A DNA stretch of 47,118 bases from Candidatus Rokuibacteriota bacterium (GTDB lineage: Bacteria > Methylomirabilota > Methylomirabilia > Rokubacteriales > CSP1-6): NCBI GenBank assembly GCA_003221515.1, contig QHSI01000009.1, positions 1-47,118 on the forward strand. The letters are read 5' to 3'. The notes under the pieces were generated by a model. It searched no databases and had not been told where the DNA came from. It worked only from the letters and a program-made list of their open reading frames with translations. This document shows, piece by piece, positions 6,700 through 27,280 of the stretch (position 1 is the stretch's first letter; every line of letters starts with the position of its first letter). Both the position numbers and the translations under genes were made by a program.

Positions 6700-7697
6700 C
6701 CAGACATCTCGCGACGCACGAGCTGCGTGCCCTCCACCATCGCGCAGAGCTTGCCGAAGGCGATCTCGCGCGGCAAGTGCAGCAGGCCGCAGTCCGGGTT
6801 GACGGAGAGGCGCTCGGCCGGGAGGATCGCGAGGGCCTCCCGGATGCGCTCAGCCACGACGGCGGGCGTCTCGACGCCGTGGGTTTTCACGTCGACGACG
6901 CCGAGGCCCAGCGTGAACGGCGCGTCGAACTCCTTGAAGAGCCGGAGGTCCTCGCTCCCGCGCCGCGCGAACTCGAGCGTGACCTGGTCGATGCGCGCCT
7001 GGAGGATCGAGGGGAAGAGGTAGCGATAGCTGCCCTCCCACGAGGGCTTGCCGTAGCGGTTGCCGTAGCAGACGTGCAGGCTCAGCCGCGCGTCGACACC
7101 GTCGACGAGCGCGTTGATCGCGCGCACGCCCCACGCCAGGTCCTCGGGGAACCCGGAATAGTAGGGCTCGTCGATCTGGATCTGCTCGGCGCCGGCGCGC
7201 ACCAGCTCGCGCAGCTCGAGGTTCATGATGCGCGCGATCTCCATCGCGAAGGCTTCCTCGCTCGGGTAGTGCTCGTTGCGGATGCGCTTGACCAGCGAGT
7301 GGGGGCCGGTGACCGAGACCTTCGTGCGGCGATCCGTGAAGCGGCGCAGGAACCGGTAGTGCTCGACGAGGCCGAGCGGCGCCATCGGCATGCGCGCCCG
7401 CACGACGGATTCGTAGAAGTCGTAGTACGACGTCTTGGACGCGCGGTCGATCTCGACGCCGGGCAGCCGCATGGCGAAATAGTCGATCATGTTGTCGCGG
7501 CGGAGCTCGCCGTCCGAGACGGTGTCGAGGCCGGCGACCTCCTGGTCCTTGATGGCGGCCTTCACGGCGGCATCGTGCATCTCGTCGAGATCGTGCGCGG
7601 TGATGCGCCGGCGCAGGTAGTCGTTCTTGGCGCGCTCGAGCCAGCCCGGCATCGAGTAGCTGCCGACGACGGCGGTGGACAGGTGCTGACCGGCCAT
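6696..7697 (-). CDS. Core MetE-like cobalamin-independent methyltransferase
   Basis: 333 aa from the ATG at 7697. It matches only the C-terminal catalytic barrel of cobalamin-independent methionine synthase; the N-terminal half of classical MetE is absent. The zinc ligands are all visible: His208 and Cys210 in LHVCYG, Glu242 in VTLEFARR and Cys303 in VNPDCGLL. QIQIDEPYYSGFP (173-185) is the expected substrate-pocket segment. Stand-alone core enzymes of this kind often do not use methyl-tetrahydrofolate triglutamate like MetE, and may use another methyl donor. It lies 8 bp after the methyltransferase-like gene and overlaps the MTHFR-like gene, making a three-gene methyl-transfer operon. Confidence 0.88.
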   Translation of the reverse strand: MAGQHLSTAVVGSYSMPGWLERAKNDYLRRRITAHDLDEMHDAAVKAAIKDQEVAGLDTVSDGELRRDNMIDYFAMRLPGVEIDRASKTSYYDFYESVVRARMPMAPLGLVEHYRFLRRFTDRRTKVSVTGPHSLVKRIRNEHYPSEEAFAMEIARIMNLELRELVRAGAEQIQIDEPYYSGFPEDLAWGVRAINALVDGVDARLSLHVCYGNRYGKPSWEGSYRYLFPSILQARIDQVTLEFARRGSEDLRLFKEFDAPFTLGLGVVDVKTHGVETPAVVAERIREALAILPAERLSVNPDCGLLHLPREIAFGKLCAMVEGTQLVRREMSG

Positions 7698-7705
7698 GAT
7701 CTTCC

Positions 7706-9154
7706 TCACTCCCGGAGCGTCGTGTAGAGGATGGTCGTGCGCGAGCCCGGGCGATACCGGAACGGCGCGAAGTGCACGTCGTAGCCGGCCCGCGCGCCGA
7801 CCACGCGCAGGAGCGCGCCGTTGACCCAGTTTACGACCGAGCCGTCGAGCTTGCCCGGTCCCCGGAATCCCTGGCGATACTCGTCCATCGTGGCGACGAA
7901 GATGTCCTGCACCTGGAGGTAGCCGCGCGGGTGCAGCAGCGGGACGGTGTTGACGAAGCTCTCCACCGCGCCCCCCGACAGGTGAAAGCGGACATCGGCC
8001 GGCGCGGTCCCGAGTAGCTCCTCCAAGTCGTTTGCGTCGAGCCCCGGCGGCAGCGGCACGTCGGCGATACCCTCGAGGCGGCGGAGGCGCTCCTCCAGGC
8101 ACACAGCGGCCCACACCGCGCGCCAGAAGCCCACGCCTCGCTCCCGGTCGCCGAAGAGGTCGGGGCCCGTGTCGAGCAGGCGAGCGACTGCGGCGCGCTG
8201 TTCGGACGGGACAACGCCGGAGGTGCTCGCGATCGCGGTCGCGGCGGGCTCGGGCAAGTACGCGCGGGTCTCGACCAGGTACAGCTGCCCGTCGCGGCGG
8301 ACGAGCTCGTCCACCGGCAGGTTGTCGTAGACGTTGGTGAGGTGGACGTAGAGGATCTTGTAGCGGAGGAACGAGAGCGCGCGCATCGGGTTGAGCGCGT
8401 CGGTGGCGATCGTGCTGACGACGTCCCGGTGCGCCTCGACGGCACGGTGGGCACGGTCGAGCGTCGGCATCGAGTAATCCGCCAGCAGGAAGCGCAGGCG
8501 AGGGTAGTAGCCCGTCGCGCGCGCTTCGTCGAGGGCCTTGAATCGATCGAGCCAGAGCCCGGCCCGCGTGCCCGAGCCCACGCCGATCTCGAGCGCGAAG
8601 ATCTCTGGCGGCAGCTGGCCGCGCTTGTCGAGCTCGACCAGTAGCGTCCAGAAGTCGGCGACCGCGTCGGCCACCGCCGCCGGATGGTTCGCATCCGATC
8701 GGCCGCTCGGCAGCGCTGCCTCGAACCCGCGGCCCGACTGATGCTCCCAGTCGCCCAGACGCTGCCAGAAGAGTCGGTTGAACCGCCAGATCGCGCTCCG
8801 GCTCAGCGGCGCCCAATCTTCTAGAACGGCGCGGCCCGCGACCTCGCGAGTCGCGGCGCCGACCGACGCGATCGCGCGCGCGAGCTCGTCGGCCAGCCGC
8901 TCGGGCCGCGCGCGGCGCACGTCGATCGCGAGCTCCGCGAGCGCGGTCGGCTCGCCACGGGCGCCGCTGGCGTGACGCACGGTAATCGGCTCGCGGAAGT
9001 TCGCCTTGTACTGGAGCCAGTCCAGATGCAGACGCAGCCGTGAGAGCACGTCGCCGTCGAGCCGACCCTGGTCCAGCAGACCGGCCAGCGACGCGATCAC
9101 CTCGCTGGCTCCGGTGTCCCCGGGCTTCGGCAGGAAGTTGACGTGGATGATCAT
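7706..9154 (-). CDS. SAM-dependent methyltransferase-like protein
   Basis: 482 aa. I place the start at the ATG at 9154 because AAGGGGAG sits 4-5 nt upstream; a longer frame starting 12 codons earlier lacks this. Residues about 187-198 read FALEIGVGSGTRA, a class I methyltransferase motif I, followed by PRLRFLLADYSMPTLDRA (motif II-like acidic end) and YDNLPVDELV near the place of the post-motif region. The fold resembles MidA/DUF185-type or related enzymes, but I do not recognise a named family. First gene of the operon with the MetE-like and MTHFR-like proteins, which suggests a common methyl-transfer pathway. Confidence 0.72.
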   Translation of the reverse strand: MIIHVNFLPKPGDTGASEVIASLAGLLDQGRLDGDVLSRLRLHLDWLQYKANFREPITVRHASGARGEPTALAELAIDVRRARPERLADELARAIASVGAATREVAGRAVLEDWAPLSRSAIWRFNRLFWQRLGDWEHQSGRGFEAALPSGRSDANHPAAVADAVADFWTLLVELDKRGQLPPEIFALEIGVGSGTRAGLWLDRFKALDEARATGYYPRLRFLLADYSMPTLDRAHRAVEAHRDVVSTIATDALNPMRALSFLRYKILYVHLTNVYDNLPVDELVRRDGQLYLVETRAYLPEPAATAIASTSGVVPSEQRAAVARLLDTGPDLFGDRERGVGFWRAVWAAVCLEERLRRLEGIADVPLPPGLDANDLEELLGTAPADVRFHLSGGAVESFVNTVPLLHPRGYLQVQDIFVATMDEYRQGFRGPGKLDGSVVNWVNGALLRVVGARAGYDVHFAPFRYRPGSRTTILYTTLRE

Positions 9155-11245: not shown

Positions 11246-12010
11246 ATGAGCGACAAGACTGACCGGACGGCGGCGACCGCGCCGCATCCGGTACTCAAGA
11301 AATACTACGAGAGCGAGAGCGGGCGGCGACCCTTCGTCAGCGCGCTCTTCGACAACGCGGCCCAGCACTACGACTGGGTCTGCGCGATGGGCTCGCTGGG
11401 GTCGGGACGGTTCTATCGGAGCTGGGTGCTGACCCAGTCCGGGCTCCGCGGCGGCATGAAGTTCCTCGACATCGCAACCGGCACCGGTCAGGTGGCCCGC
11501 GCGGCGACGCGATTGCTGCGGGAGCCGCGGGCGGTGGTCGGGCTCGATCCGAGCGCCGGCATGCTCAGGGAGGCGCGCAAGACGCTGGCGATCCCGCTGG
11601 TGCAGGGGATCGTGGAGGATCTCCCGTTCACGACCGACCGTTTCGATTTCCTGTGTATGGGCTACGCGTTGCGCCACGTCACCGATCTCGGCGTGGCCTT
11701 CCGCGAGTGCCGGCGGGTGCTGAAGCCTGGTGGGCGGCTCCTAGTCCTCGAGATCTCGCTGCCGAGCTCGGCCGCCGGCCAGCGCGTCTTCCGGCTCTAC
11801 TTCGAACGCGTGTTGCCGCTGCTCACCCGGATCAGCACCGGGAGCGCCCAGGCCGAGCTGCTCATGAAGTACTACTGGGACACGATCGCCCAGTGCGTGC
11901 CGTCGGAGCAGATCATTGACGTGCTGGGGGCGAGCGGCTTCACCGGCGTCGCGCGGCGCGTACGCGGCGGCATGCTCAACGAGTACGTCGCGCTGAAGCC
12001 CGCGGGCTGA
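11246..12010 (+). CDS. UbiE-like class I SAM-dependent methyltransferase
   Basis: 254 aa from the ATG at 11246 (a GTG at 11237 is the alternative; AAAGAGG at 11227-11233 is a little far from the first and close to the second). FLDIATGTGQVARAA is motif I, VVGLDPSAGMLREAR motif II, and IVEDLPFTTDRFDFLCMGYALRHV matches the UbiE/COQ5 signature. RVLKPGGRLLVLEISLP is the post-motif. Such enzymes C-methylate quinone precursors or other rings. It converges with the halogenase-like operon and might tailor that product; the plus-strand orientation and own leader make this a guess. Confidence 0.88.
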   Translation: MSDKTDRTAATAPHPVLKKYYESESGRRPFVSALFDNAAQHYDWVCAMGSLGSGRFYRSWVLTQSGLRGGMKFLDIATGTGQVARAATRLLREPRAVVGLDPSAGMLREARKTLAIPLVQGIVEDLPFTTDRFDFLCMGYALRHVTDLGVAFRECRRVLKPGGRLLVLEISLPSSAAGQRVFRLYFERVLPLLTRISTGSAQAELLMKYYWDTIAQCVPSEQIIDVLGASGFTGVARRVRGGMLNEYVALKPAG

Positions 12011-12045
12011 CGCGCCGGGGCCATGTCGGGGCCCGCACCGCCACG

Positions 12046-12216
12046 CTGGGAGGCAGAGGAGCGTCACGGCTACGCCGGGACGCTGCGAACGTGCGGGGGG
12101 CATGGGGGGCCCTTTCGAGGCCCCATCGCCACCCTGGGAGGCAGAGGAGCGTCACGGCTACGCCGGGACGCTGCGAACGTGCGGGGGGCATGGGGGGCCC
12201 TTTCGAGGCCCCCCAT
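12046..12216. repeat. 88-bp tandem duplication, two copies
   Basis: The block starting CTGGGAGGCAGAGGAGCGTC at 12046 is repeated from 12134, a period of 88 bp, with about 79 identical bases. The copies differ at the end: copy 1 has two fewer C residues and lacks the full hairpin arm. Each copy contains the GGGGGGCCCTTTCGAGGCCCC hairpin motif's core. It fills the space between the converging UbiE-like and halogenase-like genes. No coding content is apparent. Confidence 0.9.
12190..12216 (-). terminator. 3'-end hairpin after the halogenase-like gene
   Basis: On the minus strand ATGGGGGGCC (12216-12207), loop TCGAAAG and GGCCCCCCAT (12199-12190) give a perfect 10-bp stem with a 7-nt loop, 4 bp after the TGA stop at 12221-12223. 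No T-tract follows. It is the strongest of three related hairpins found after minus-strand stop codons in this window. It probably ends or stabilises the four-gene biosynthetic transcript; this is inferred. Confidence 0.6.
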
Positions 12217-12220
12217 CTAA

Positions 12221-13501
12221 TCAATGAATCGCCATCTCCGCGGACGTGACGCCGCGCATGCCGTAGCGCGCGAGGATCCGGAGCAGAGCGCGGCTGTAGC
12301 GAGACGTGGTGCCGACGCCGGAGGCCTGCAGGGCGATGTGGCGCTCGATGTGGTTCTGCGCGGCGCTCTTGAAGGCGCTCGGGCCTTCGTCGATCCAGTT
12401 GCGCCCCGACCGCATGAGCGCCAGCATGCGCCCGTCGTAGAAGTGGGCGACGAGGTCCAGCCACGCGGCCAGCATGCGCTGTTGCATCGCCGCGTACGGG
12501 CGCAGCGCCGCGTAGAGCTCGTCGGGTGAGGGCGTCGCCCGACGGCGCAAGAACGGGGCAACCGCGTCGGCCACGACCTCCGCCGAGCGGAGCGCCAGGA
12601 ACACGCCGGGCGACAGCATTGGATCCACGAAGCCGAACGCGTCGCCGATTGCCACCCAGCCCGGGCCGGCACCGCGCTCGGAGATCAGCTGGTAGTTCGA
12701 GTAGGTCGCCACCGACGTCACGCGCTTGGCGGCGCCGACCATCGAGGTGAGCCAGGGGTCGATTGCGATCGCCCGCTCGAGGCGCTCCAGCGGTGTCGCG
12801 CCGAGTCCAGCCGCGTCGTCGCGGCCCAGCACGATGCCCACCGAGAGCCGCTCCTTGAGCGGAATGCCCCAGCTCCAACCTGCCTTGAGACGTGAGATGA
12901 GCACCTGGCCCGGGACGTCGTCCCACTTGAAGTCTTCGAAGTGAGCGAAGTGCGCCACGTCGTTGCGCGGTCCGACCCGCGCGGGAATCCTCAGCGCGCC
13001 GGCCGCGAGCCGGCCGCGTCCGGTCGCGTCGACGATGAAATCGGGCTGACGGTCTCCGAGCGTCGGCGCGGCGGCGAGCGTCTCGGCGTCGAGCGCCAGC
13101 TCGGCCGATCCGGTGCCCGCTGGCCCGAGGCGCGCCCGTGCGATCACGTGTTGGACGCCGGCGGCCACCGCTCGCGCCCGCACCGCCTCATCGAACTGCG
13201 GGCGCGCGATGTTGTAGGCATAGGGGGGCACGGCCGGAGCGAACCGCGCGAACGTGAAGCTGAAGCGCTCGGACTCCGACCACACGAACGAGACGCCGGG
13301 CTTCAGCCTTCCGCAGGTCGCCATCGTGTCCTCGATGCCGAGGCGCTTGAAGATCGGGATGACGGCGGGGATCAGCGACTCGCCGACCAGCAGCTCCGGA
13401 CGCCGCCCGTCGTCGAAGAGCGTCACCTGCGCGCCCTCGCGGACGAGCAGGATGGCTAGCGCCGATCCCGCCGGGCCCGCCCCGATGATCGCGACCCTCA
13501 T
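12221..13501 (-). CDS. FAD-dependent halogenase-like oxidoreductase
   Basis: 426 aa flavoprotein. The FAD Rossmann motif is GAGPAG (7-12). VGESLIPAVIPIFKRLGI (39-56), with Lys67 in RLKPGVSFVW, matches the region holding the catalytic lysine of flavin-dependent halogenases. GWSWGIPL contains W209-x-W211-x-I213-P214, the WxWxIP hallmark that excludes monooxygenase chemistry in that family. AIGDAFGFVDPMLSPGV (285-300) is the second flavin-binding motif. It lies 7 bp after the ligase gene in a four-gene operon with a carrier protein, so halogenation of a carrier-bound acyl group is the natural hypothesis. A geranylgeranyl-reductase-like or plain hydroxylase role remains possible. Confidence 0.78.
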   Translation of the reverse strand: MRVAIIGAGPAGSALAILLVREGAQVTLFDDGRRPELLVGESLIPAVIPIFKRLGIEDTMATCGRLKPGVSFVWSESERFSFTFARFAPAVPPYAYNIARPQFDEAVRARAVAAGVQHVIARARLGPAGTGSAELALDAETLAAAPTLGDRQPDFIVDATGRGRLAAGALRIPARVGPRNDVAHFAHFEDFKWDDVPGQVLISRLKAGWSWGIPLKERLSVGIVLGRDDAAGLGATPLERLERAIAIDPWLTSMVGAAKRVTSVATYSNYQLISERGAGPGWVAIGDAFGFVDPMLSPGVFLALRSAEVVADAVAPFLRRRATPSPDELYAALRPYAAMQQRMLAAWLDLVAHFYDGRMLALMRSGRNWIDEGPSAFKSAAQNHIERHIALQASGVGTTSRYSRALLRILARYGMRGVTSAEMAIH

Positions 13502-13508
13502 GGCTCTG

Positions 13509-14996
13509 TCATCCTCGCTCGACCGAGACCGGAGCGGCGTCGTCGTCCCGGGCCGGCCGCCGGGAGATTTTTCCGCCCGGCGTCCGCGGCACGGCGTCGA
13601 CGATCTTGAACTCGAGCGGCACCTTGTAGGAGGACAGGACGCGGGCGCAGTGCGTCTTCAGCCCGTCGAGGTCGCACCCGGCCGGATCCACGACGACCTC
13701 GGCGCAAGGCACCTCGCCGATGCGAGCGTGCGGCCGACCGTACACGCGCGACTCCTTGATGCCCGGGAACTGGTTGATGCAGTCTTCGACTTCTTCGGGG
13801 AAGAACTTCAGGCCCGCGACGAAGATCACCGCCTTCTTCCGGCCCTTAAGGTGCAGCGCGCCGGCCGCATCGAGCCGACCGAGGTCGCCCGTCAGGAACC
13901 AGCCGTCGCGGGCGACCTGCTCGCGCAGCTGCCACGGCGCGTAGTACGCCGAGAAGAGCCCGCGGCCCCGCACCGCGATCTCGCCGATCGCGTCGGTGGC
14001 GAGCGGCGCCCCCTCGTCGGAGAGGACGGCGATCTCGTAGCCAGGCACGGGTCGGCCCACGGCGGTGGCCGGGACACCGTCGGTTCGTAGGTTGATGCAC
14101 GGCAGCCCACACTCGATGATCCCGTAAGCCTGACCGACCGGCACGCCGTAGACGGATTCGAAGCGGTCCATCACCGCCTGCGTGATCGGCGCGCTGGTCG
14201 AGAGCACGAGACGAAGGCTTGCCAGCCGCTCGCTCGGCCCGAGGTGGCCCATGCGCTCGAAGTGGAGCGGCGAGGCGTACAGCACGCTCGGGCGCCGCCG
14301 TCGGGTCGCGTCGACCAGCGCGCGGGGCAGCGTGTCGGGGGACAACAGGATGTGCGAGCCGGCGCGCACGTACGCGACGATCGTCACCGCGAAGTGATAG
14401 GCGAGTGGGAGCATCCAGAGGATGCGGTCTTCTTCCGTGAAAGCGAGCACCCGGTCGGCGGCCTCGACGCGCGCGGCCGTCGCCTCGTGCGAGAGCACGA
14501 CGCCCTTGCTGCGGGCGGTCGTCCCCGACGTGAATCTGATGAACGCGGCGTTCAGGCGATAGAACTCCGCCGGAGCTCGGGCGGCGCGATCGATCCAGCC
14601 GAACGTGAACCCGTCGCATTCGCCGCCCTGCAGACGCGCGGCGCCGTCGGGCACGGCGGTCGCGTCGGCCCCCGACCAGGCGAGGCAGCCGTTGAGCTGA
14701 ACGTCCCGGACGATCTCGGCGATCTCGGCTTGCGCCAGGTTGCTGGCCAGCGGCACCAGGCACGCGCCCGCCTCGAGGAGGCCGAACGCCGCCGGCAGGT
14801 ACGCGACGCCGTTCGGCGCGAGGAGCCCGACGCGCTGGCCGGGCTCCACGCCGCGCGCTTTCAAGAACGCGGCCACCGAGCGCGACTCGCGCGCGAGCTG
14901 TCCGTAGCTCATCGAGCGGGCCGAGCGCACGTCGGTGGCGACGGGTCGCTCGGGCCATCGATCGGCCGATGCGTGGAGCAGATTCGCGAGATTCAT
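13509..14996 (-). CDS. Stand-alone adenylate-forming ligase (A-domain/acyl-CoA synthetase)
   Basis: 495 aa member of the AMP-dependent synthetase superfamily, starting at the ATG at 14996. Core motifs are complete: RFTSGTTARSKGVV (154-167, the P-loop), YGIIECG (A5), WFLTGDLGR (A7), GRKKAVIFVAGLKFFPEEVE (A8 hinge) and PRTPGGKISRR with the catalytic C-terminal lysine. It should activate a carboxylic acid as adenylate and load it on CoA or, given the context, on the carrier protein two genes upstream. Its ATG is 2 bp after the condensation-gene stop, and its stop is 7 bp before the halogenase-like gene. Substrate specificity is not readable by eye. Confidence 0.9.
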   Translation of the reverse strand: MNLANLLHASADRWPERPVATDVRSARSMSYGQLARESRSVAAFLKARGVEPGQRVGLLAPNGVAYLPAAFGLLEAGACLVPLASNLAQAEIAEIVRDVQLNGCLAWSGADATAVPDGAARLQGGECDGFTFGWIDRAARAPAEFYRLNAAFIRFTSGTTARSKGVVLSHEATAARVEAADRVLAFTEEDRILWMLPLAYHFAVTIVAYVRAGSHILLSPDTLPRALVDATRRRRPSVLYASPLHFERMGHLGPSERLASLRLVLSTSAPITQAVMDRFESVYGVPVGQAYGIIECGLPCINLRTDGVPATAVGRPVPGYEIAVLSDEGAPLATDAIGEIAVRGRGLFSAYYAPWQLREQVARDGWFLTGDLGRLDAAGALHLKGRKKAVIFVAGLKFFPEEVEDCINQFPGIKESRVYGRPHARIGEVPCAEVVVDPAGCDLDGLKTHCARVLSSYKVPLEFKIVDAVPRTPGGKISRRPARDDDAAPVSVERG

Positions 14997-14998
14997 CG

Positions 14999-16315
14999 TC
15001 AGTGGGCCTCGATCCAGTCCATCTCGGCGCGTATGACCTCCACGATGCGCGTGACTTCGTCCTCGGAGACCGCCCCGTCGATCCACGATACGACGAGGTT
15101 GTTCTCCTTCCCACACCGGTTGAAGAATACCCCGATCCCGGGCCGCGGCAGCACGGACGGCGCGTGGTACGCGTCGATGACGCGCGCGCCGAAGAGCTGC
15201 TCGAGGGACCCCGGGAAATCTCCGAGGTCGGCGCAGTTGAACGAGAAGGTCTCGCGGGCGGCGGTGCCCGGTAGGTCGTTCAACATGAGCGAGAGCGGCC
15301 GGTAGGTCAGAAACTCCATCGCGACCGCGTTCGCGTCGATCTGGCCGTCGCGGAGCGCCTCCACCATCTGCCGGCGCAGCGTGAGCGTGAGCCCGGCGAG
15401 GTCCGCCGTCTCGGAGGGACGGAACCGGGCGAAGTGGAACGCCAGCATGTTGCCGAAGGTCGGTCCCGGATCGCCCTTGGGCCGCAGGTCGACCGAGATC
15501 GGCAGCAGGAACGGCTCGTCGGGAAACCCGCGACGGCTCCAGAGCTCGGCCATGGCCTTGCCGACCAGCGCCAGCCGCCAGCAGATCTCGCGCTTGGCGC
15601 GTCCACCGGCCGGATCGCGGTAGACGAAGCTCGCCTGAAGAAATCGAGCTCGTCCCGGCGTGGTCACGCCGGACCCGGGTGACACCGGCGGCGTCGGCGC
15701 GAGCGCACGCATGTACGCACGGCTTCGCCGACCCATCCGCCCGCGCACGCTGAGCGGCCGGGGATCGGGCTCCGGCACGAACGCCGGCGGCGCCCCGTCC
15801 CACGGCGCGCGGCCGTCGGCCTGATCGATGTGGGCCAGATGCGCCAGGAGATTCTGCGCGCCGCGCGGGTCCATCAACGGGTGGAACCACGTGAACACGA
15901 GAAAGGTCCGCACGGCGTCGCGGCCGCCGGGCGAGTAGAGAATCGACACCCGGAGCGGCGGCTCCCGGCGCGGATCGATCGCCGCGTTCAGCTCGGCCTC
16001 GAGCATCGTGTGCAGCAGCTTCGGTGAATCGACGCGCTGGTGGAGCAGCGGAAGCGAGCCGGGCACGGCGCGGCGGCCGGCGGCCCAGTGCAGCTTGCCC
16101 CACGGGAACGGACGCCTGAGACGCGCGACCGGCCAGGGGCAGATTTCCAGGAAGCCATCGAGCGCGCGGCGGATCCGCGCGGGGTCGAGCGGGCCGTCGC
16201 ACTCGACGACCATGAGCGTGTTGTTGCTGATCTTCTCGCGGCGCCAGAGCGCCTGCATCGCGACCAGAACGAGATCGGCGCCGCGCAAAGGCAGCCGGCG
16301 AGCGTGTGCGCTCAC
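14999..16315 (-). CDS. Free-standing condensation-domain-like acyltransferase
   Basis: 438 aa protein of the CoA-dependent acyltransferase fold (NRPS condensation, Pap and wax ester synthase relatives). TWFHPLMDPRG at 142-152 aligns with HHxxxDG: the catalytic second His (145) and the Asp (149) are present, while the first His is Phe and the Gly is Pro. ISVDLRPKGDPGPTFGNMLAF is the conserved C-terminal-half segment (the DLR...GN motif of Pap/WS enzymes). The likely reaction is transfer of a carrier-bound acyl group to an amine or alcohol. It starts 4 bp after the carrier-protein gene and ends 2 bp before the ligase gene. Confidence 0.78.
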   Translation of the reverse strand: MSAHARRLPLRGADLVLVAMQALWRREKISNNTLMVVECDGPLDPARIRRALDGFLEICPWPVARLRRPFPWGKLHWAAGRRAVPGSLPLLHQRVDSPKLLHTMLEAELNAAIDPRREPPLRVSILYSPGGRDAVRTFLVFTWFHPLMDPRGAQNLLAHLAHIDQADGRAPWDGAPPAFVPEPDPRPLSVRGRMGRRSRAYMRALAPTPPVSPGSGVTTPGRARFLQASFVYRDPAGGRAKREICWRLALVGKAMAELWSRRGFPDEPFLLPISVDLRPKGDPGPTFGNMLAFHFARFRPSETADLAGLTLTLRRQMVEALRDGQIDANAVAMEFLTYRPLSLMLNDLPGTAARETFSFNCADLGDFPGSLEQLFGARVIDAYHAPSVLPRPGIGVFFNRCGKENNLVVSWIDGAVSEDEVTRIVEVIRAEMDWIEAH

Positions 16316-16319
16316 GACG

Positions 16320-16625
16320 CTACGACTCGCTCCGCCGCCGGGAGATGTAGGTCGCCAGGGCGCGCACCGTCCGGATGTTCTCCTCGACGAGGTCCTCGTC
16401 GGGCATCCAGAAGCCGTACTCAGCCTCGATGAAGAGCAGGATCTTCAAGAGCGCCATCGAGTCGAGGCCGGCGAGCTCGAGATCGTCGTCGGGCTGCACC
16501 GGATGGCTGCGGGCCATGATGGTGGCGTCGATGAACGTGGTGAGGACTTTGATGATCGCGTCGGGTGCAAGCCTGATGACGGTTAGGCTCTCGCCGGCAT
16601 TTCGCCTAGACACTACCGTCGCCAC
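16320..16625 (-). CDS. Discrete acyl/peptidyl carrier protein
   Basis: 101 aa if the GTG at 16625 is the start; a second in-frame GTG four codons later, or a later start near the first helix, is equally possible as no clear ribosome binding site is seen. DDDLELAGLDSMALLKIL has the phosphopantetheine serine (Ser56) in the DSM context and the usual helix II, followed by FIEAEYGFWMPDEDL. It is a free carrier rather than a domain in a megasynthase. First gene of the four-gene operon (carrier, condensation, ligase, halogenase-like). It would need a phosphopantetheinyl transferase encoded elsewhere. Confidence 0.88.
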   Translation of the reverse strand: MATVVSRRNAGESLTVIRLAPDAIIKVLTTFIDATIMARSHPVQPDDDLELAGLDSMALLKILLFIEAEYGFWMPDEDLVEENIRTVRALATYISRRRSES

Positions 16626-16906: not shown

Positions 16907-18178
16907 GTGAAGCGAGCCCGCGCGCGCGCCGCGAAGCCCCAGGCCGGTCCATTCGACGGCTACCATCGACGGCACGTCCCCGCGCCGGATCCTGAGCTGA
17001 CGCAGGTCGGCCCGGGGACGCCCTGCGGCGAGTATCTCCGCCGTTTCTGGCAACCCGTAGCGTTCGCGCGTGATCTCACCGCCACGCCCCGCCGCGTGCG
17101 CATCCTGGGCGAGGACCTGGTGGTGTTCCGTGATCGCGGCGGGCAAATCGGCGTGCTGCACCTGCACTGCGCGCACCGGGGGACGTCGCTCGAATTCGGG
17201 ATCCCAGTCGAGCGCGGGATCCGCTGCTGCTATCACGGCTGGGTGTATGACGTCGACGGGCGGTGTCTCGAGACGCCCGGCGAGCCTCACGGTAGCCGGC
17301 TCCGGGAGCGCGTTCGCCAGGGCGCCTATCCGACTCACGAGTTCGCGGGGCTGGTGTTCGCCTACCTCGGGCCGCCGGACTGTCGGCCCGCGTTCCCGCG
17401 CTACGACAGCTACGAGCTCCCGGGCTATCAGCTGAAGCCCGCCGCGCAGTTCGTGCTCCCGTGCAACTGGCTCCAGGTGAAAGACAACAGCATGGACCCG
17501 GTCCACACCGCGTTCCTGCACGCGCTGAGCAGCGGCTATCAGTTCACCGAGGCGTTCGGCGTCGTCCCCGAGCTCGACTGGCTGACGACCGAGGCGGGCA
17601 TGGTGTACGTGGCGACGCGCCGCGTCGGCGATCTGGTGTGGGTCCGCGTGTGCGATTTCATGCCGCCGAACATCCATCAGTTCACGCGCGAGATCGAGGA
17701 GGCGAGCGAGCCCAAGCCGGCGAGCCGGCCCGTCGTCATCCGCTGGGCCGTGCCCAACGACGACACGTGCACGACCAACTTCGAGCTCGCGCAGGTCGAT
17801 CCGGCGTGGGGACTCACCGACGAGCAGATGGCCCGGCCCGGCTTCGGGCAGGCCGACGAGCGGTCGTACACCGATCGGCAGCGCCAGCCGGCGGACTTCG
17901 ACGCGCAATCGAGCCAGCGCACCATCGCGGTCCACGCGCTCGAGCACCTGGCCTCGACCGACCGCGGCGTGATCATGCTCCGTCGCACCGTCCGCGCCGG
18001 CATCCACGCGGTCGCGCGCGGCGGCGATCCCCACGGGACGCGCTGGCCTGCGGGCAAGATCATCCGCACGTTCGCGCAAGACCTCGTGCTGCGCGTGCCG
18101 CCGGCGGCGAGCCCGGAAGCCGACCGGCGCCTCCTGCGGGCCACCGGCCGGAGCGTGATCACGAACGGCAGAGACTAG
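16907..18178 (+). CDS. Rieske non-heme iron oxygenase, terminal component
   Basis: 423 aa from a GTG at 16907. The Rieske cluster is Cys88-x-His90 (CAHRG) and Cys107-x2-His110 (CCYHGW), spaced by 16 residues. The mononuclear iron site is seen in DNSMDPVHTAFLH (193-205) with His200 and His205. Single-component-type oxygenases like this demethylate or hydroxylate aromatic ethers, or act on carnitine-like or steroid substrates; a separate reductase is needed and none is nearby. The N terminus is Arg/Ala-rich and may start later than annotated. It ends next to a strong hairpin shared with the convergent small gene. Confidence 0.9.
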   Translation: MKRARARAAKPQAGPFDGYHRRHVPAPDPELTQVGPGTPCGEYLRRFWQPVAFARDLTATPRRVRILGEDLVVFRDRGGQIGVLHLHCAHRGTSLEFGIPVERGIRCCYHGWVYDVDGRCLETPGEPHGSRLRERVRQGAYPTHEFAGLVFAYLGPPDCRPAFPRYDSYELPGYQLKPAAQFVLPCNWLQVKDNSMDPVHTAFLHALSSGYQFTEAFGVVPELDWLTTEAGMVYVATRRVGDLVWVRVCDFMPPNIHQFTREIEEASEPKPASRPVVIRWAVPNDDTCTTNFELAQVDPAWGLTDEQMARPGFGQADERSYTDRQRQPADFDAQSSQRTIAVHALEHLASTDRGVIMLRRTVRAGIHAVARGGDPHGTRWPAGKIIRTFAQDLVLRVPPAASPEADRRLLRATGRSVITNGRD

Positions 18179-18823: not shown

Positions 18824-19867
18824 TCAAAGCCGAGCTTCGTCGATCTTGAGACCGAGCCAGTACCGGCCGATCAGCTCGTAGTGGGCGAGACGCCCCTGCA
18901 GGTGCTGCGTGATCACGTGGATGTCCTGGAAGTGGCGCTGGAGCAGATGATCCTCGTAGGCGGCGGTGGCGCCCGAGGCGTTGTAGATGCTGTCGATGAT
19001 CTGCGCCGCGAGCCGGATCCCATGCGTCGCGGCCAGCCGAAGATTCGCGCGCTGCTCGAGGGCGAGCGTGCCGCTCGTGCTGGCCGCCCAGATCTCGCGC
19101 ACCGCTTCGAGGAGAAACGCCCTCCCCGAGCGTAGCGCGGCTTCCGCCTGGCCGACGGTCATCTGGACCATCGCCTGGTCGCGGAGCAGCCCTTGCATGG
19201 CCCGCGGGGTCTTGGCGCCGGCGAGCTCGCCGAACGTCTCCAGGCACGTCCGCGCCATCCCGAACGCGACGGCGGCGTCGCCCGAGGCGAACAGCAGCGT
19301 GCGCGGAATTCTAAATAACGGCGCGTTCTCGAGCAGCGGCGCGGTCTGCGAGAGCACGGTGCGCTCGGTCGGCACGAAGACGTCGTTCACCGCGAAGTGG
19401 TGGGTGCCGGTGCCGCGCATGCCCCGCGTGTGCCAGGTGTCGAGCAGCTCCGCCTCGGCGACCGGCACGAAGAAATAGCGCGCCTCCGGCTGCTCGCCCT
19501 CGAGCCGCACCTGGCCGTTCTCGATGATCTGCGCGTGGGCCGCGACCCACGACGCGTGGCGGCAGCCGGTGCTGAAGCCCTGGCGGCCGGTGACGCGGTA
19601 GCCGCCCGGAACCACGATGGCCTTGGCGCTGGGAGCAGGTGTATTCGCGACGACCGCGCGCGGCACGTCGATCCAGATCTTCCGCGCGACCGCGCGCGGC
19701 ATCCGCGCGGCGTAGGTTCCGAAGATCGCGCCCTGGTTGAGGCACCAGCCCGTGCTCGCATCGGCCTTGCCGATCTCCTCGATCACCTGGACGTACGTCG
19801 GCAGGTCGATCTCGCCGCCGCCGATCGCGCGTGGGATCGCCATGTGGAACAGGCCAGCGTCCGCCAT
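18824..19867 (-). CDS. Acyl-CoA dehydrogenase-family flavoprotein, start probably lost
   Basis: From the first ATG the protein is 347 aa: GEIDLPTYVQVIEEIGKADASTGWC, GYRVTGRQGFSTGCRHASW (flavin-binding beta domain), WHTRGMRGTGTHHFAVNDVFVP and a C-terminal helical bundle. This is the HpaH/group D-like branch of the family. However, 44 codons before this ATG are still in frame and still homologous (ALLDAARKLVPQIRSAADEI), reaching a TAG at 20000-20002 without any ATG, GTG or TTG. Family members are near 385 aa. Either translation starts at a CTG or the gene lost its head when it was joined to the TauD remnant. Function is doubtful. Confidence 0.72.
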   Translation of the reverse strand: MADAGLFHMAIPRAIGGGEIDLPTYVQVIEEIGKADASTGWCLNQGAIFGTYAARMPRAVARKIWIDVPRAVVANTPAPSAKAIVVPGGYRVTGRQGFSTGCRHASWVAAHAQIIENGQVRLEGEQPEARYFFVPVAEAELLDTWHTRGMRGTGTHHFAVNDVFVPTERTVLSQTAPLLENAPLFRIPRTLLFASGDAAVAFGMARTCLETFGELAGAKTPRAMQGLLRDQAMVQMTVGQAEAALRSGRAFLLEAVREIWAASTSGTLALEQRANLRLAATHGIRLAAQIIDSIYNASGATAAYEDHLLQRHFQDIHVITQHLQGRLAHYELIGRYWLGLKIDEARL

Positions 19868-20294: not shown

Positions 20295-20516
20295 CTACCG
20301 GTGTCGCGCTGTCGCGATGGTGCCGACGGTCGTGCCGTGAACGAGCCGCCGCACGTCGCGGCCCGCGATGCCGCGCGCCTGCAGCCCCGCCAGGACGGCG
20401 GCGGCCTCGTTGCGTGGCTGCGACGGGACCTTGGTGACGACGACGCGGCCCGTCGCCTCGTCTACCGCGGTGAGGTCGGTGAACGTGCCGCCGACATCGA
20501 TCCCGACGATGAACAT
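20295..20516 (-). pseudogene. Hydantoinase A/5-oxoprolinase N-terminal fragment
   Basis: 73 codons from ATG at 20516. GIDVGGTFTDLTAVDEATGR is the ATP-binding start of HyuA/oxoprolinase proteins, and VRRLVHGTTVGT near residue 58-69 is their next conserved block. Full proteins are near 680 aa; here a TAG at 20295-20297 follows at once. The -10-like TATCAT lies 6 nt before the ATG, so the original promoter seems to remain. Divergent from the aminotransferase gene with 40 bp between starts. Confidence 0.72.
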
Positions 20517-24722: not shown

Positions 24723-25472
24723 GTGACTGACCTCTGGCTGGTCCCCTTGATCGCCATCGCACTGACGCAAGCAGCGGTGGTCGCGACGTCGGTGTACCTG
24801 CACCGCGCGTTGGCTCATCGAGCGCTGGTCGTGCACCCGGTTGCGGACGTATTGTTCCGGGCGGCCCTCTGGCTCACGACCGGGATGCGCCGTCAGGCCT
24901 GGGTCGCCGTCCATCGCAAGCATCACGCCTTCACCGATCGTGAAGGCGATCCCCATAGCCCTCGCCTGCTCGGTCTGTGGTGTGTCCAGCTTCTGAACGC
25001 CTACTACTATCAGCGAGAGGCGCGGAACCCCCACACGATCCGGACGTTCGCCCCGGACCTCCCCGAGGACCGGCTGGATCGGTTGATCTTTTCAAGAGGG
25101 GTGGTCGGGCTCGCTCTCGGCACCGCCCTGCTCTGTGTCCCGCTCGGCGTGGTCCCGGGGCTCATCGCGGCGCTGACTCATGCCGTCCTCTACGTCGGCG
25201 TGCTGGCGCCACTGATCAACGGCGTCGGGCACTGGCGAGGCGCCCAAAACTTCGAGAACACGGCGTACAACTCGACGGTGCTGGCGTGGCTGACCGGCGG
25301 CGAGAGCCTGCACAACAACCACCATGCCGCCCCGCGCGCCCCGAAGTTCAGCGTGCGACCAGCGGAATTCGATCCGTCGTGGCTGGTGATTCGCGCGCTG
25401 GCGGCGCTCAGGCTCGTGGTGGTCGTCGGCCCGCCTCTTAGCCTGTCCGCTGGCGGTCGAGCCGCCCGCTGA
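24723..25472 (+). CDS. Membrane fatty acid desaturase (delta-9 type)
   Basis: 249 aa from GTG at 24723. The three histidine boxes that hold the di-iron centre are complete: HRALAH (27-32), HRKHH (64-68) and HNNHH (197-201), with four hydrophobic segments between them. It introduces a cis double bond in acyl-CoA or lipid-bound chains. It is shorter than eukaryotic enzymes and normal for bacterial acyl-CoA desaturases. Electron donor is not encoded nearby. Together with the RRM protein it suggests that this island helps with cold or membrane stress. Confidence 0.93.
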   Translation: MTDLWLVPLIAIALTQAAVVATSVYLHRALAHRALVVHPVADVLFRAALWLTTGMRRQAWVAVHRKHHAFTDREGDPHSPRLLGLWCVQLLNAYYYQREARNPHTIRTFAPDLPEDRLDRLIFSRGVVGLALGTALLCVPLGVVPGLIAALTHAVLYVGVLAPLINGVGHWRGAQNFENTAYNSTVLAWLTGGESLHNNHHAAPRAPKFSVRPAEFDPSWLVIRALAALRLVVVVGPPLSLSAGGRAAR

Positions 25473-25495
25473 ACGGCGAAGAGCGGAGGACGATC

Positions 25496-25648
25496 ATGGT
25501 CAAGTGTCCCACCTGCAAGCGAGAGCTCAAGGATGAAACGCAGAAATTCTGCAATGAGTGCAACCGTGGCTACGGTAAGCCGGGGCAGGGTACGCGGCGA
25601 TCGCCGGGAAGAACCGCCGCACGAAGGCGCCGCCGGCGCGGCCACTGA
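25496..25648 (+). CDS. 50-aa zinc-ribbon protein
   Basis: ATG at 25496 with GCGGAGGA upstream. MVKCPTCKRELKDETQKFCN then ECNRGYG gives two pairs of Cys (CPTC, CNEC), a rubredoxin-knuckle zinc ribbon, followed by an Arg-rich basic tail that likely binds nucleic acid. No family name can be given. It follows the desaturase gene by 23 bp on the same strand and is probably cotranscribed. Confidence 0.75.
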   Translation: MVKCPTCKRELKDETQKFCNECNRGYGKPGQGTRRSPGRTAARRRRRRGH

Positions 25649-25682
25649 CGTCTGAAGGGTTCCCGGGCGCTCGACCCTCAGC

Positions 25683-26657
25683 TCACCGCACCAGCTTCGG
25701 CAGTCGGCCCTTCAGCACCGCCCCGGCCTCCGCCACGATGCGCTCGACCAGCTCGCCGGCCGGCGGAATGTCGCGGATCAACCCGGCGTCCTGGCCGATG
25801 AGCAGCGAGGCATTCTTGGCGTCGCCGCTCTCCTGGGCCTTCTGAAGCGCGGCGGCGGCCTCGGGTTGCCGGGCGCGCAGCTCCCACTCGCGGCCGGCCC
25901 AGCGTTCGATGAACTCGTTGCGCAGGGCGCGCGCCATCGCGCCGGGCCACACGTTGTCGCGCGCGACGTCGGGGATCTCCGTCAACACCGTGTCGTGCCC
26001 GTCGCTGTCGAGCACCGCCTGCTTGAAGTTGGGGTGCAGCGGCGATTCCTTCGTGGCCAGGAAGCGCGTGCCGAGCAGGGCCCCCTGGGCGCCGAGCGCC
26101 AGCGCCGCCGCGAGCCCACGTCCGTCGGCGATACCGCCGGCGGCCACCACCGGCGTCGAGCCGACCGCGTCGACGATCATCGGGAGCAAGGTCATGCTCG
26201 CCATCCAGCCGACGTGCCCGCCGCCCTCCGTCCCCTGGGCCACGATCACGTCCGCGCCCGCCGCCTTCGCGCGCAGCGCCTCCGGCACGGTGCCGACCAT
26301 GTACATCACCTTGCTGCCCGCGTCGTGCGCACGGCCGAAGAGCGACGTCAGATCCTGATCGGCGCGCGCCCACGCCGCCGAGAACACGGGCGGGCGCGTC
26401 TTGAGGGCCGCGTCGAGAGCGGGCTCGCGCGCCAGAAACAGCAGGAAGTTGACGCCGAAGGGATGCTTGGTCCCCTCGCGGATCGCGCCGATTTGTGGCT
26501 GGATCTGCTCGGCCGGTGTCCGTGCGATGCCGAGCGTGCCGAGCCCGCCGGCGTTGCTGACCGCCGCCACCAGGGGGACCGAGGTGCTGCCCGCCATACC
26601 GCCCAGCATGATGGGGTGCCGGATCTGGAACAGGTCACAAACCGGTGTGTGGATCAT
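25683..26657 (-). CDS. Nitronate monooxygenase-like FMN enzyme
   Basis: 324 aa TIM-barrel flavoprotein. IRHPIMLGGMAGSTSVPLVA at the N terminus, NAGGLGTLGIA, GVNFLLF, ADVIVAQGTEGGGHVGWMAS (the FMN phosphate and active-site His region), TPVVAAGGIADGRG and ALLGTRFLATKES are all typical. It oxidises alkyl nitronates or reduces enoyl substrates (some relatives are FabK). It starts 2 bp after the DUF1326 stop, so it belongs to the DUF2182-DUF1326 transcript. Confidence 0.93.
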   Translation of the reverse strand: MIHTPVCDLFQIRHPIMLGGMAGSTSVPLVAAVSNAGGLGTLGIARTPAEQIQPQIGAIREGTKHPFGVNFLLFLAREPALDAALKTRPPVFSAAWARADQDLTSLFGRAHDAGSKVMYMVGTVPEALRAKAAGADVIVAQGTEGGGHVGWMASMTLLPMIVDAVGSTPVVAAGGIADGRGLAAALALGAQGALLGTRFLATKESPLHPNFKQAVLDSDGHDTVLTEIPDVARDNVWPGAMARALRNEFIERWAGREWELRARQPEAAAALQKAQESGDAKNASLLIGQDAGLIRDIPPAGELVERIVAEAGAVLKGRLPKLVR

Positions 26658-26659
26658 GG

Positions 26660-27280
26660 CTAGCTCGAGCTCCAGGCGAACGGCGCGAAGTGGCCGTTGT
26701 TGCGGCCCGACGTGTCGTCCCAGTCGATGCCGAACGCGTGCATGTGACCGCGCGCGGCCTTGGCCAGCGCGAGTCGCGACGCGGCCGGATGGCCGACGTT
26801 GTCGAAGTAGATCGGCTCGCCCTTCTTGGCGCCGGAGACGCCCTCGATGGCGATGTCGAGTACGCGCGGGATCGAGACCGAGCGGCGCAGTCCGCTCTTC
26901 TCGATCTTGATCGGCTTCGCCTCGGCGCCGCCGAAGCGGCCCACCAGGGGACCGAGCGCGGCCATCGGCCCACCGCCCTGGCCGCTCGCGATCGCGGTCA
27001 GCGCCTCGCGCTGGGTCGTGGTGGCGCGCTCGTCCAGGATCACACCGACCGTCCAGTTGCCCTGGGCCATGGGACCGGGCGTGTGGAGCAGGACCGCGAA
27101 GCTCAGGCCGTCGAGCCTGGTGCCCGCGTACTCGCCGCGCTCGACGGTGAAGACGAGCCCGGCGTCGCAGTAGCCCTTGGTGGGCGGCGCCGTCATCGCC
27201 GACGTCGGGCAGGGGCACACGAAGTCGCAGCTGCACGCTTCGAAGTACTCGCCGTTGATCTTCCACTGAGCGTTCGCCAT
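26660..27280 (-). CDS. DUF1326 domain protein
   Basis: 206 aa. The family signature is at the front: WKINGEYFEACSCDFVCPCP with three Cys (CSCDFVC plus CPC) that may bind a metal, then a beta-rich body with GYCDAGLVF and HFAPFAWSSS at the end. Function is unknown. DUF1326 genes are regularly found next to DUF2182 genes, as here (27 bp between), which suggests a shared membrane complex or metal-linked task. Confidence 0.92.
   Translation of the reverse strand: MANAQWKINGEYFEACSCDFVCPCPTSAMTAPPTKGYCDAGLVFTVERGEYAGTRLDGLSFAVLLHTPGPMAQGNWTVGVILDERATTTQREALTAIASGQGGGPMAALGPLVGRFGGAEAKPIKIEKSGLRRSVSIPRVLDIAIEGVSGAKKGEPIYFDNVGHPAASRLALAKAARGHMHAFGIDWDDTSGRNNGHFAPFAWSSS

Follow-up and report, generated by a model that had tools for sequence, protein, structure and literature searches.

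A four-gene operon of Candidatus Rokubacteria pairing a stand-alone condensation-fold protein with a halogenase-type flavoprotein: a candidate for carrier-bound halogenation

In the β-tyrosine arm of the C-1027 pathway, SgcC3 chlorinates carrier-bound β-tyrosine, going by the title of Lin et al. 2007 as cited in PMC8795117, and SgcC5 is a free-standing condensation enzyme that forms both ester and amide bonds (PMC10212144). Among other flavin-dependent halogenases (FDHs), action on carrier-bound substrates is known or has been postulated for PltA, ChlB4, Bmp2, and Mpy16, and has been proposed for CndH (PMC8407142). Here, we describe a minus-strand operon in a 47,118-nucleotide stretch of DNA (contig QHSI01000009.1, assembly GCA_003221515.1, referred to as the window) from a metagenome-assembled genome of Candidatus Rokubacteria, a phylum of soil-dwelling bacteria known largely from metagenomic data. 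Its four genes encode, in order, a carrier protein, a condensation-fold protein, an adenosine monophosphate (AMP) ligase, and a flavoprotein, with intergenic gaps of 4, 2, and 7 bp. We tentatively read this operon, at somewhat less than an even chance, as a small carrier-dependent tailoring pathway in which an acid is activated, loaded, halogenated on the carrier, and transferred.

In the proposed pathway, the ligase would adenylate a carboxylic acid lacking an α-amino group and load it onto the discrete carrier; an aryl acid or a short alkyl acid is probable. The flavoprotein, given FADH2 by a reductase encoded elsewhere, would then halogenate the carrier-tethered acyl group: C4a-hydroperoxyflavin and halide would generate hypohalous acid (HOX), which would reach K67 through a tunnel shielded by the WxWxIP motif. 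The condensation-fold enzyme would take the modified acyl group off the carrier and hand it to an acceptor, an amine or an alcohol, and a UbiE-like methyltransferase probably methylates the substrate or the product. Gene content, family membership, invariant catalytic residues, folds, and the co-inheritance of the flavoprotein and the condensation protein with the ligase are computed results; from these, we infer a carrier-bound substrate, insertion of halogen rather than oxygen, and transfer rather than dehydration.

There is good evidence that the flavoprotein is of the FDH type, with halogenating activity predicted, because its motifs and lysine are invariant and both a structure-profile ranking and a fold ranking place FDHs on top. 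It matches Trp_halogenase (PF04820) at 78.6 bits (cut-off 21), and K67, WxWxIP (W209xW211xI213P214), and FxxPxxSxG are retained in 17 of 17 orthologues. The tunnel motif reads FVDPMLSPG, in agreement with both FxxPxxSxG and Fx[DE]Px[EFL]. Together with GxGxxG, these signatures align with those of FasV, CndH, CmlS, PltA, and SgcC3; UbiI, UbiH, and FixC lack the lysine, WxWxIP, and FxxPxxSxG in the alignment, and paralogues from aryl-polyene-like clusters have them. According to a review, every active FDH carries FxxPxxSxG or a variant of it (PMC8407142), and WxWxIP has been proposed to prevent hydroxylation (PMC10696468). When the family profile was compared with solved structures, FasV ranked first (E 3.3e-47), followed by CndH, CmlS, Mpy16, and PltA. 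The predicted model (mean predicted local distance difference test score, pLDDT, 70) gave a similar picture, with FasV (Z 31.8), PltA (31.7), ChlB4 (31.5), Bmp2 (31.0), CndH (30.7), and Mpy16 (30.2) all above the hydroxylases, which reached 27.5 or less. In the tree, the flavoprotein groups with FDHs with a support of 100/100 against UbiI/UbiH and 82/89 against FixC, to be read with the usual caution for long branches. A geranylgeranyl reductase or a UbiH-type hydroxylase was thus ruled out by motifs, tree, and fold ranking, and a true QhpG by its score of 126.7 bits against the NCBIfam cut-off of 240. A second halogenase-type flavoprotein (422 amino acids, 7216-8484), bearing the lysine and WxWxIP, is encoded elsewhere in the same genome, in an aryl-polyene-like cluster (L058, G000:C105, 1561-10348 and downstream) with ketosynthases, a carrier, and a glycosyltransferase-like gene.

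Pfam and NCBIfam searches returned no family for the condensation protein. PF00668 matched none of 17 members at E values up to 1, and PapA_C gave weak matches in 12 of the 17 (best E 0.0013). Because a profile search of PDB sequences produced chance matches only, the fold was taken from a predicted model (mean pLDDT 66.5, predicted template modelling score 0.73). This model comprises a whole two-lobed condensation fold whose top matches score Z 23-28 over 362-381 residues: the closest solved fold is AzeD (PDB 8s6l), with Z 27.7 over 381 residues, followed by condensation (C) domains of nonribosomal peptide synthetases (NRPS; up to 23.7), heterocyclisation domains (about 22), PapA5 (20.5), wax synthase (about 20), and SgcC5 (18.8). 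H145 and D149 are invariant in 17 of 17 members, within the motif [FC]HPLMD[PA]RG. Relatives of this protein were found neither in its own phylum outside one Rokubacteria family nor in 72,556 plasmids; a search of 201 genomes from a single other phylum, run without a positive control, also yielded none.

The two remaining proteins are both recognised by Pfam. The carrier matches PP-binding (PF00550) at 34.1 bits (cut-off 20.8), and its serine motif GxDSM is invariant, with DSM in 12 of 12 orthologues. The ligase matches AMP-binding (PF00501, 222 bits) and AMP-binding_C (PF13193, 49 bits) and has the features of an ANL adenylating enzyme, including the A3 P-loop, YGxxE, TGD, and the A10 lysine; the A3, A7, and A10 motifs with this lysine are kept in 11 orthologues. 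Asp235 in the A4 motif of amino-acid adenylation (A) domains binds the α-amine. The ligase A4 motif reads LAYHFAV, with His203, invariant in the same 11 ligases, at what we take from established A-domain numbering to be the Asp235 site. An α-amino acid substrate is unlikely on this residue, since the amine-binding Asp is replaced by His. The best solved relative, malonyl-CoA synthetase (165 bits), is too distant to name the acid. The original prediction, drawn from the DNA letters alone, had described a one-strand four-gene operon with these short gaps, the DSM serine, the A-domain core motifs, the catalytic His and Asp of an HHxxxDG motif, the WxWxIP motif with a well-placed lysine, and a convergent UbiE-like methyltransferase; gene coordinates, orthologue alignments, and Pfam agree with it on each count, and its reading of the flavoprotein as halogenase-like rather than a geranylgeranyl reductase or ordinary hydroxylase held up, as did the link of this protein to a carrier and a ligase.

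A total of 99 related genomes were searched with the condensation protein and the flavoprotein, and genes were called in the neighbourhoods. The four-gene arrangement recurs in seven genera, the four proteins being 55-93% identical apart from a single distant carrier (51%); since it recurs so widely with protein identity kept, it is more than chance. Three arrangements can be distinguished. Type A, to which the window belongs, consists of the carrier, the condensation protein, in some cases a flavin adenine dinucleotide (FAD) oxidoreductase, the ligase, and the flavoprotein; the convergent methyltransferase is usually there as well. The oxidoreductase (407 amino acids, PF12831), a fifth operon gene of relatives, is present in eight type A loci, including one seen as a piece (L056), and is missing from those of the window, L029, L031, and L046. 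Type B contains only the condensation protein, the flavoprotein, and the convergent methyltransferase, at a second place (L039-L045). Type C (G004, G008, and G001, in the last spread over two contigs) comprises the carrier, the oxidoreductase, and the ligase but neither the condensation protein nor the flavoprotein, and its surroundings match those of type A within the genus. Three genomes thus lack both of these genes at the home locus: G001 and G008 have a type B locus elsewhere and keep ligase and carrier at home, and G004 has neither pair gene. In the trees of both proteins all type B copies fall into one clade each, and so one joint duplication would be the simplest account of the type B pair. 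The relatives thus hold two modules, a carrier-(FAD oxidoreductase)-ligase module and a separable condensation protein-flavoprotein pair. Five type B loci (L039, L041, L042, L044, and L045) are flanked by a conserved 484-residue amidase and a 332-residue luciferase-like oxidoreductase, and the type B flavoprotein of G008 (L043, G008:C173, 10374-11598) is interrupted by a frameshift or a stop, perhaps through decay or assembly error.

The co-occurrence of the families in related genomes, on which the original prediction had staked its pathway, was borne out among 57 genomes of the family. A ligase orthologue is present in 16 of them, accompanied by the flavoprotein in 15; 14 of these 15 also have the condensation protein, and in G009 the ligase lies at a contig end, so that the condensation gene is perhaps cut off. 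The 41 genomes without the ligase contain neither the flavoprotein (0/41) nor the condensation protein (0/41), meaning that the pair never occurs without the ligase (15/15 and 14/14, respectively). Fisher tests of co-occurrence with the ligase gave 7e-13 and 2e-11, values for relatives that are not independent. In 20000 within-genus shuffles, the observed overlap was reached 189 times for flavoprotein and ligase, 183 times for condensation protein and ligase, and 24 times for condensation protein and flavoprotein. Four genera with mixed members are all-or-none for the gene set. These counts and shuffles imply that the condensation protein and the flavoprotein need each other as well as the ligase. 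The ligase and carrier need neither of them, as in G004.

Several findings weigh against the proposed halogenation and transfer. FDH-like proteins sharing the flavoprotein fold can be monooxygenases. The FDH clade joins our flavoprotein through a long branch with the 82/89 support against FixC, the pLDDT of the model falls below 50 around K67, too low to judge tunnel geometry, and the best NCBIfam match, although under its cut-off, is QhpG. The condensation motif is not HHxxxDG, its first His and DG being replaced, and the nearest solved fold, AzeD, is titled a dehydratase; for these reasons, acyl transfer to an amine or alcohol is no more than the more probable of two interpretations. Type B loci carry the pair without an adjoining carrier, which bears on the carrier-bound substrate; the operon itself encodes a carrier, and the flavoprotein never occurs without the ligase. 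No flavin reductase gene lies within the operon, but FDHs can be served by reductases encoded elsewhere (PMC8407142).

The main alternative, built on QhpG and AzeD, gives the pair a different chemistry: the flavoprotein, acting as an oxygenase, would hydroxylate the acyl group on the carrier, and the condensation-fold protein would then remove water, leaving an unsaturation and no halogen, ester, or amide. QhpG is itself a dihydroxylase with a CmlS-like fold, AzeD stands well ahead of the next fold (Z 27.7 against 23.7), dehydrating C domains exist (PMC10880069), and a hydroxylation-dehydration couple would fit two genes that come and go as a pair. We nevertheless regard this as unlikely: K67, WxWxIP, and FxxPxxSxG are all kept, with WxWxIP thought to block oxygenation, FDH structures outrank hydroxylases, and the function of AzeD is taken here from its PDB title only. 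The strict pairing and the AzeD-like fold would equally suit a cryptic halogenation, with the tethered acid halogenated and hydrogen halide then eliminated by the condensation-fold protein or by the FAD oxidoreductase of relatives to give a halogen-free product. Known examples of cryptic halogenation run on non-haem iron enzymes, however, and the oxidoreductase is dispensable, as the window and three other type A loci show, making this route improbable. It would be more surprising still if the four genes did not form one pathway and their order were simply inherited Rokubacteria synteny. Within the genus, the Rieske, acyl-CoA-dehydrogenase-like, and alcohol dehydrogenase genes nearby are indeed syntenic as well, but the four-gene core persists across seven genera in spite of changes among those neighbours and is all-or-none in the four mixed genera, and its pair has moved to a second locus only where the ligase is retained. 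Carrier-bound halogenation followed by transfer remains our preferred, tentative reading. A bolder joint claim, that this is a self-contained carrier-bound halogenation system in an uncultured phylum, with a new stand-alone condensation family obligately paired with its own halogenase clade in a coupled reaction on a carrier-bound acid (halogenation, then transfer or elimination) unlike any characterised system, strikes us as doubtful.

Table 1. Genes of the operon and the convergent methyltransferase in the window.
Feature	Coordinates	Strand	Characteristics
Discrete acyl/peptidyl carrier protein, 101 aa	16320..16625	-	PF00550, serine 56 in GLDSM
Stand-alone condensation-fold protein, 438 aa	14999..16315	-	H145xxxD149; fold from predicted model; no Pfam/NCBIfam family
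ANL-type AMP ligase, 495 aa	13509..14996	-	PF00501, PF13193; A4 without the alpha-amino-acid Asp
Flavin-dependent-halogenase-type flavoprotein, 426 aa	12221..13501	-	PF04820; K67, W209xW211xI213P214, F291xxP294xxS297xG299
UbiE-like methyltransferase, 254 aa, convergent on operon	11246..12010	+	PF01209

The methyltransferase (Ubie_methyltran, 111.8 bits) is a conserved neighbour, adjoining the operon or its condensation protein-flavoprotein pair in most relatives. The gap between it and the convergent flavoprotein gene (12033-12208) is filled by two tandem 88-bp copies that are 97% identical. The window also contains a divergent Rieske-type oxygenase gene (17096-18178) and an acyl-CoA-dehydrogenase-like gene (18824-19867), which adjoin the operon genus-wide, even where the condensation protein and flavoprotein have been lost. 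At 20295-20516 lies a 73-residue remnant of a hydantoinase-A-like gene, whose version in a sister genome (L029) encodes 682 residues and is followed by two more genes; the window genome seems to be several kb shorter there, by loss. The Rieske oxygenase, the acyl-CoA-dehydrogenase-like protein, the alcohol dehydrogenase, and the hydantoinases were considered as pathway parts and dropped, as they do not lie beside the core in other genera.

The operon suggests that Rokubacteria are likely to make a halogenated metabolite. An earlier survey of this phylum used PF00668 to count condensation domains and reported low numbers (PMC7298704); the enzyme described here, a putative condensation enzyme without a carrier-domain neighbour that is always paired with a halogenase-type flavoprotein, escapes that profile. 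The five-protein set is small enough to be expressed whole. It would provide a compact system for carrier-bound halogenation and would test how much departure from HHxxxDG the condensation fold tolerates while remaining functional.

Compared with described systems, the window flavoprotein has the fold, lysine, WxWxIP, and FxxPxxSxG in common with the Variant B FDHs (PltA, Mpy16, Bmp2, ChlB4, and CndH) and the related FasV and CmlS, but shares only about 20-24% identity with them in structural alignment and forms a separate, long-branched clade. QhpG, a hydroxylase of peptidyl Trp, supplies its best NCBIfam profile and has a CmlS-like fold; the window protein reaches about half the QhpG cut-off, and the solved QhpG chain matches the family profile with E 2.2e-7, far below FasV. 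The condensation protein shares its whole-length fold and HxxxD spacing with AzeD and NRPS C domains, but is 16% identical to them, has the first His and DG replaced, and is not recognised by PF00668.

The closest parallel in overall composition is the β-tyrosine arm of C-1027 from Streptomyces globisporus C-1027, which likewise combines four discrete proteins of these kinds: an adenylation enzyme, a carrier, a flavin halogenase (carrier-dependent in C-1027), and a free-standing condensation enzyme. The C-1027 plasmid record has discrete condensation, phosphopantetheine, and AMP-binding proteins at 51564-57573 and a halogenase at 25352-26830, which we take, from established knowledge of the cluster, to be SgcC5, SgcC2, SgcC1, and SgcC3. 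The original prediction had known of no named cluster with these four discrete parts, and on this point it did not hold. SgcC3 is 30% identical to the window flavoprotein over 379 columns and shares its motifs, and SgcC1 is a distant relative of the ligase at 25%. SgcC2 lacks sequence similarity to the carrier (E 0.083), as does SgcC5 to the condensation protein (BLASTP E 0.39), with which it has only the fold in common. Moreover, the C-1027 genes lie dispersed through a large enediyne cluster that also encodes an aminomutase and a hydroxylase, whereas those of the window form one operon, without an obvious acceptor pathway. The four-part logic is therefore already known from C-1027, and what is new here, judging from sequence comparison, is a condensation family and a halogenase clade of their own.

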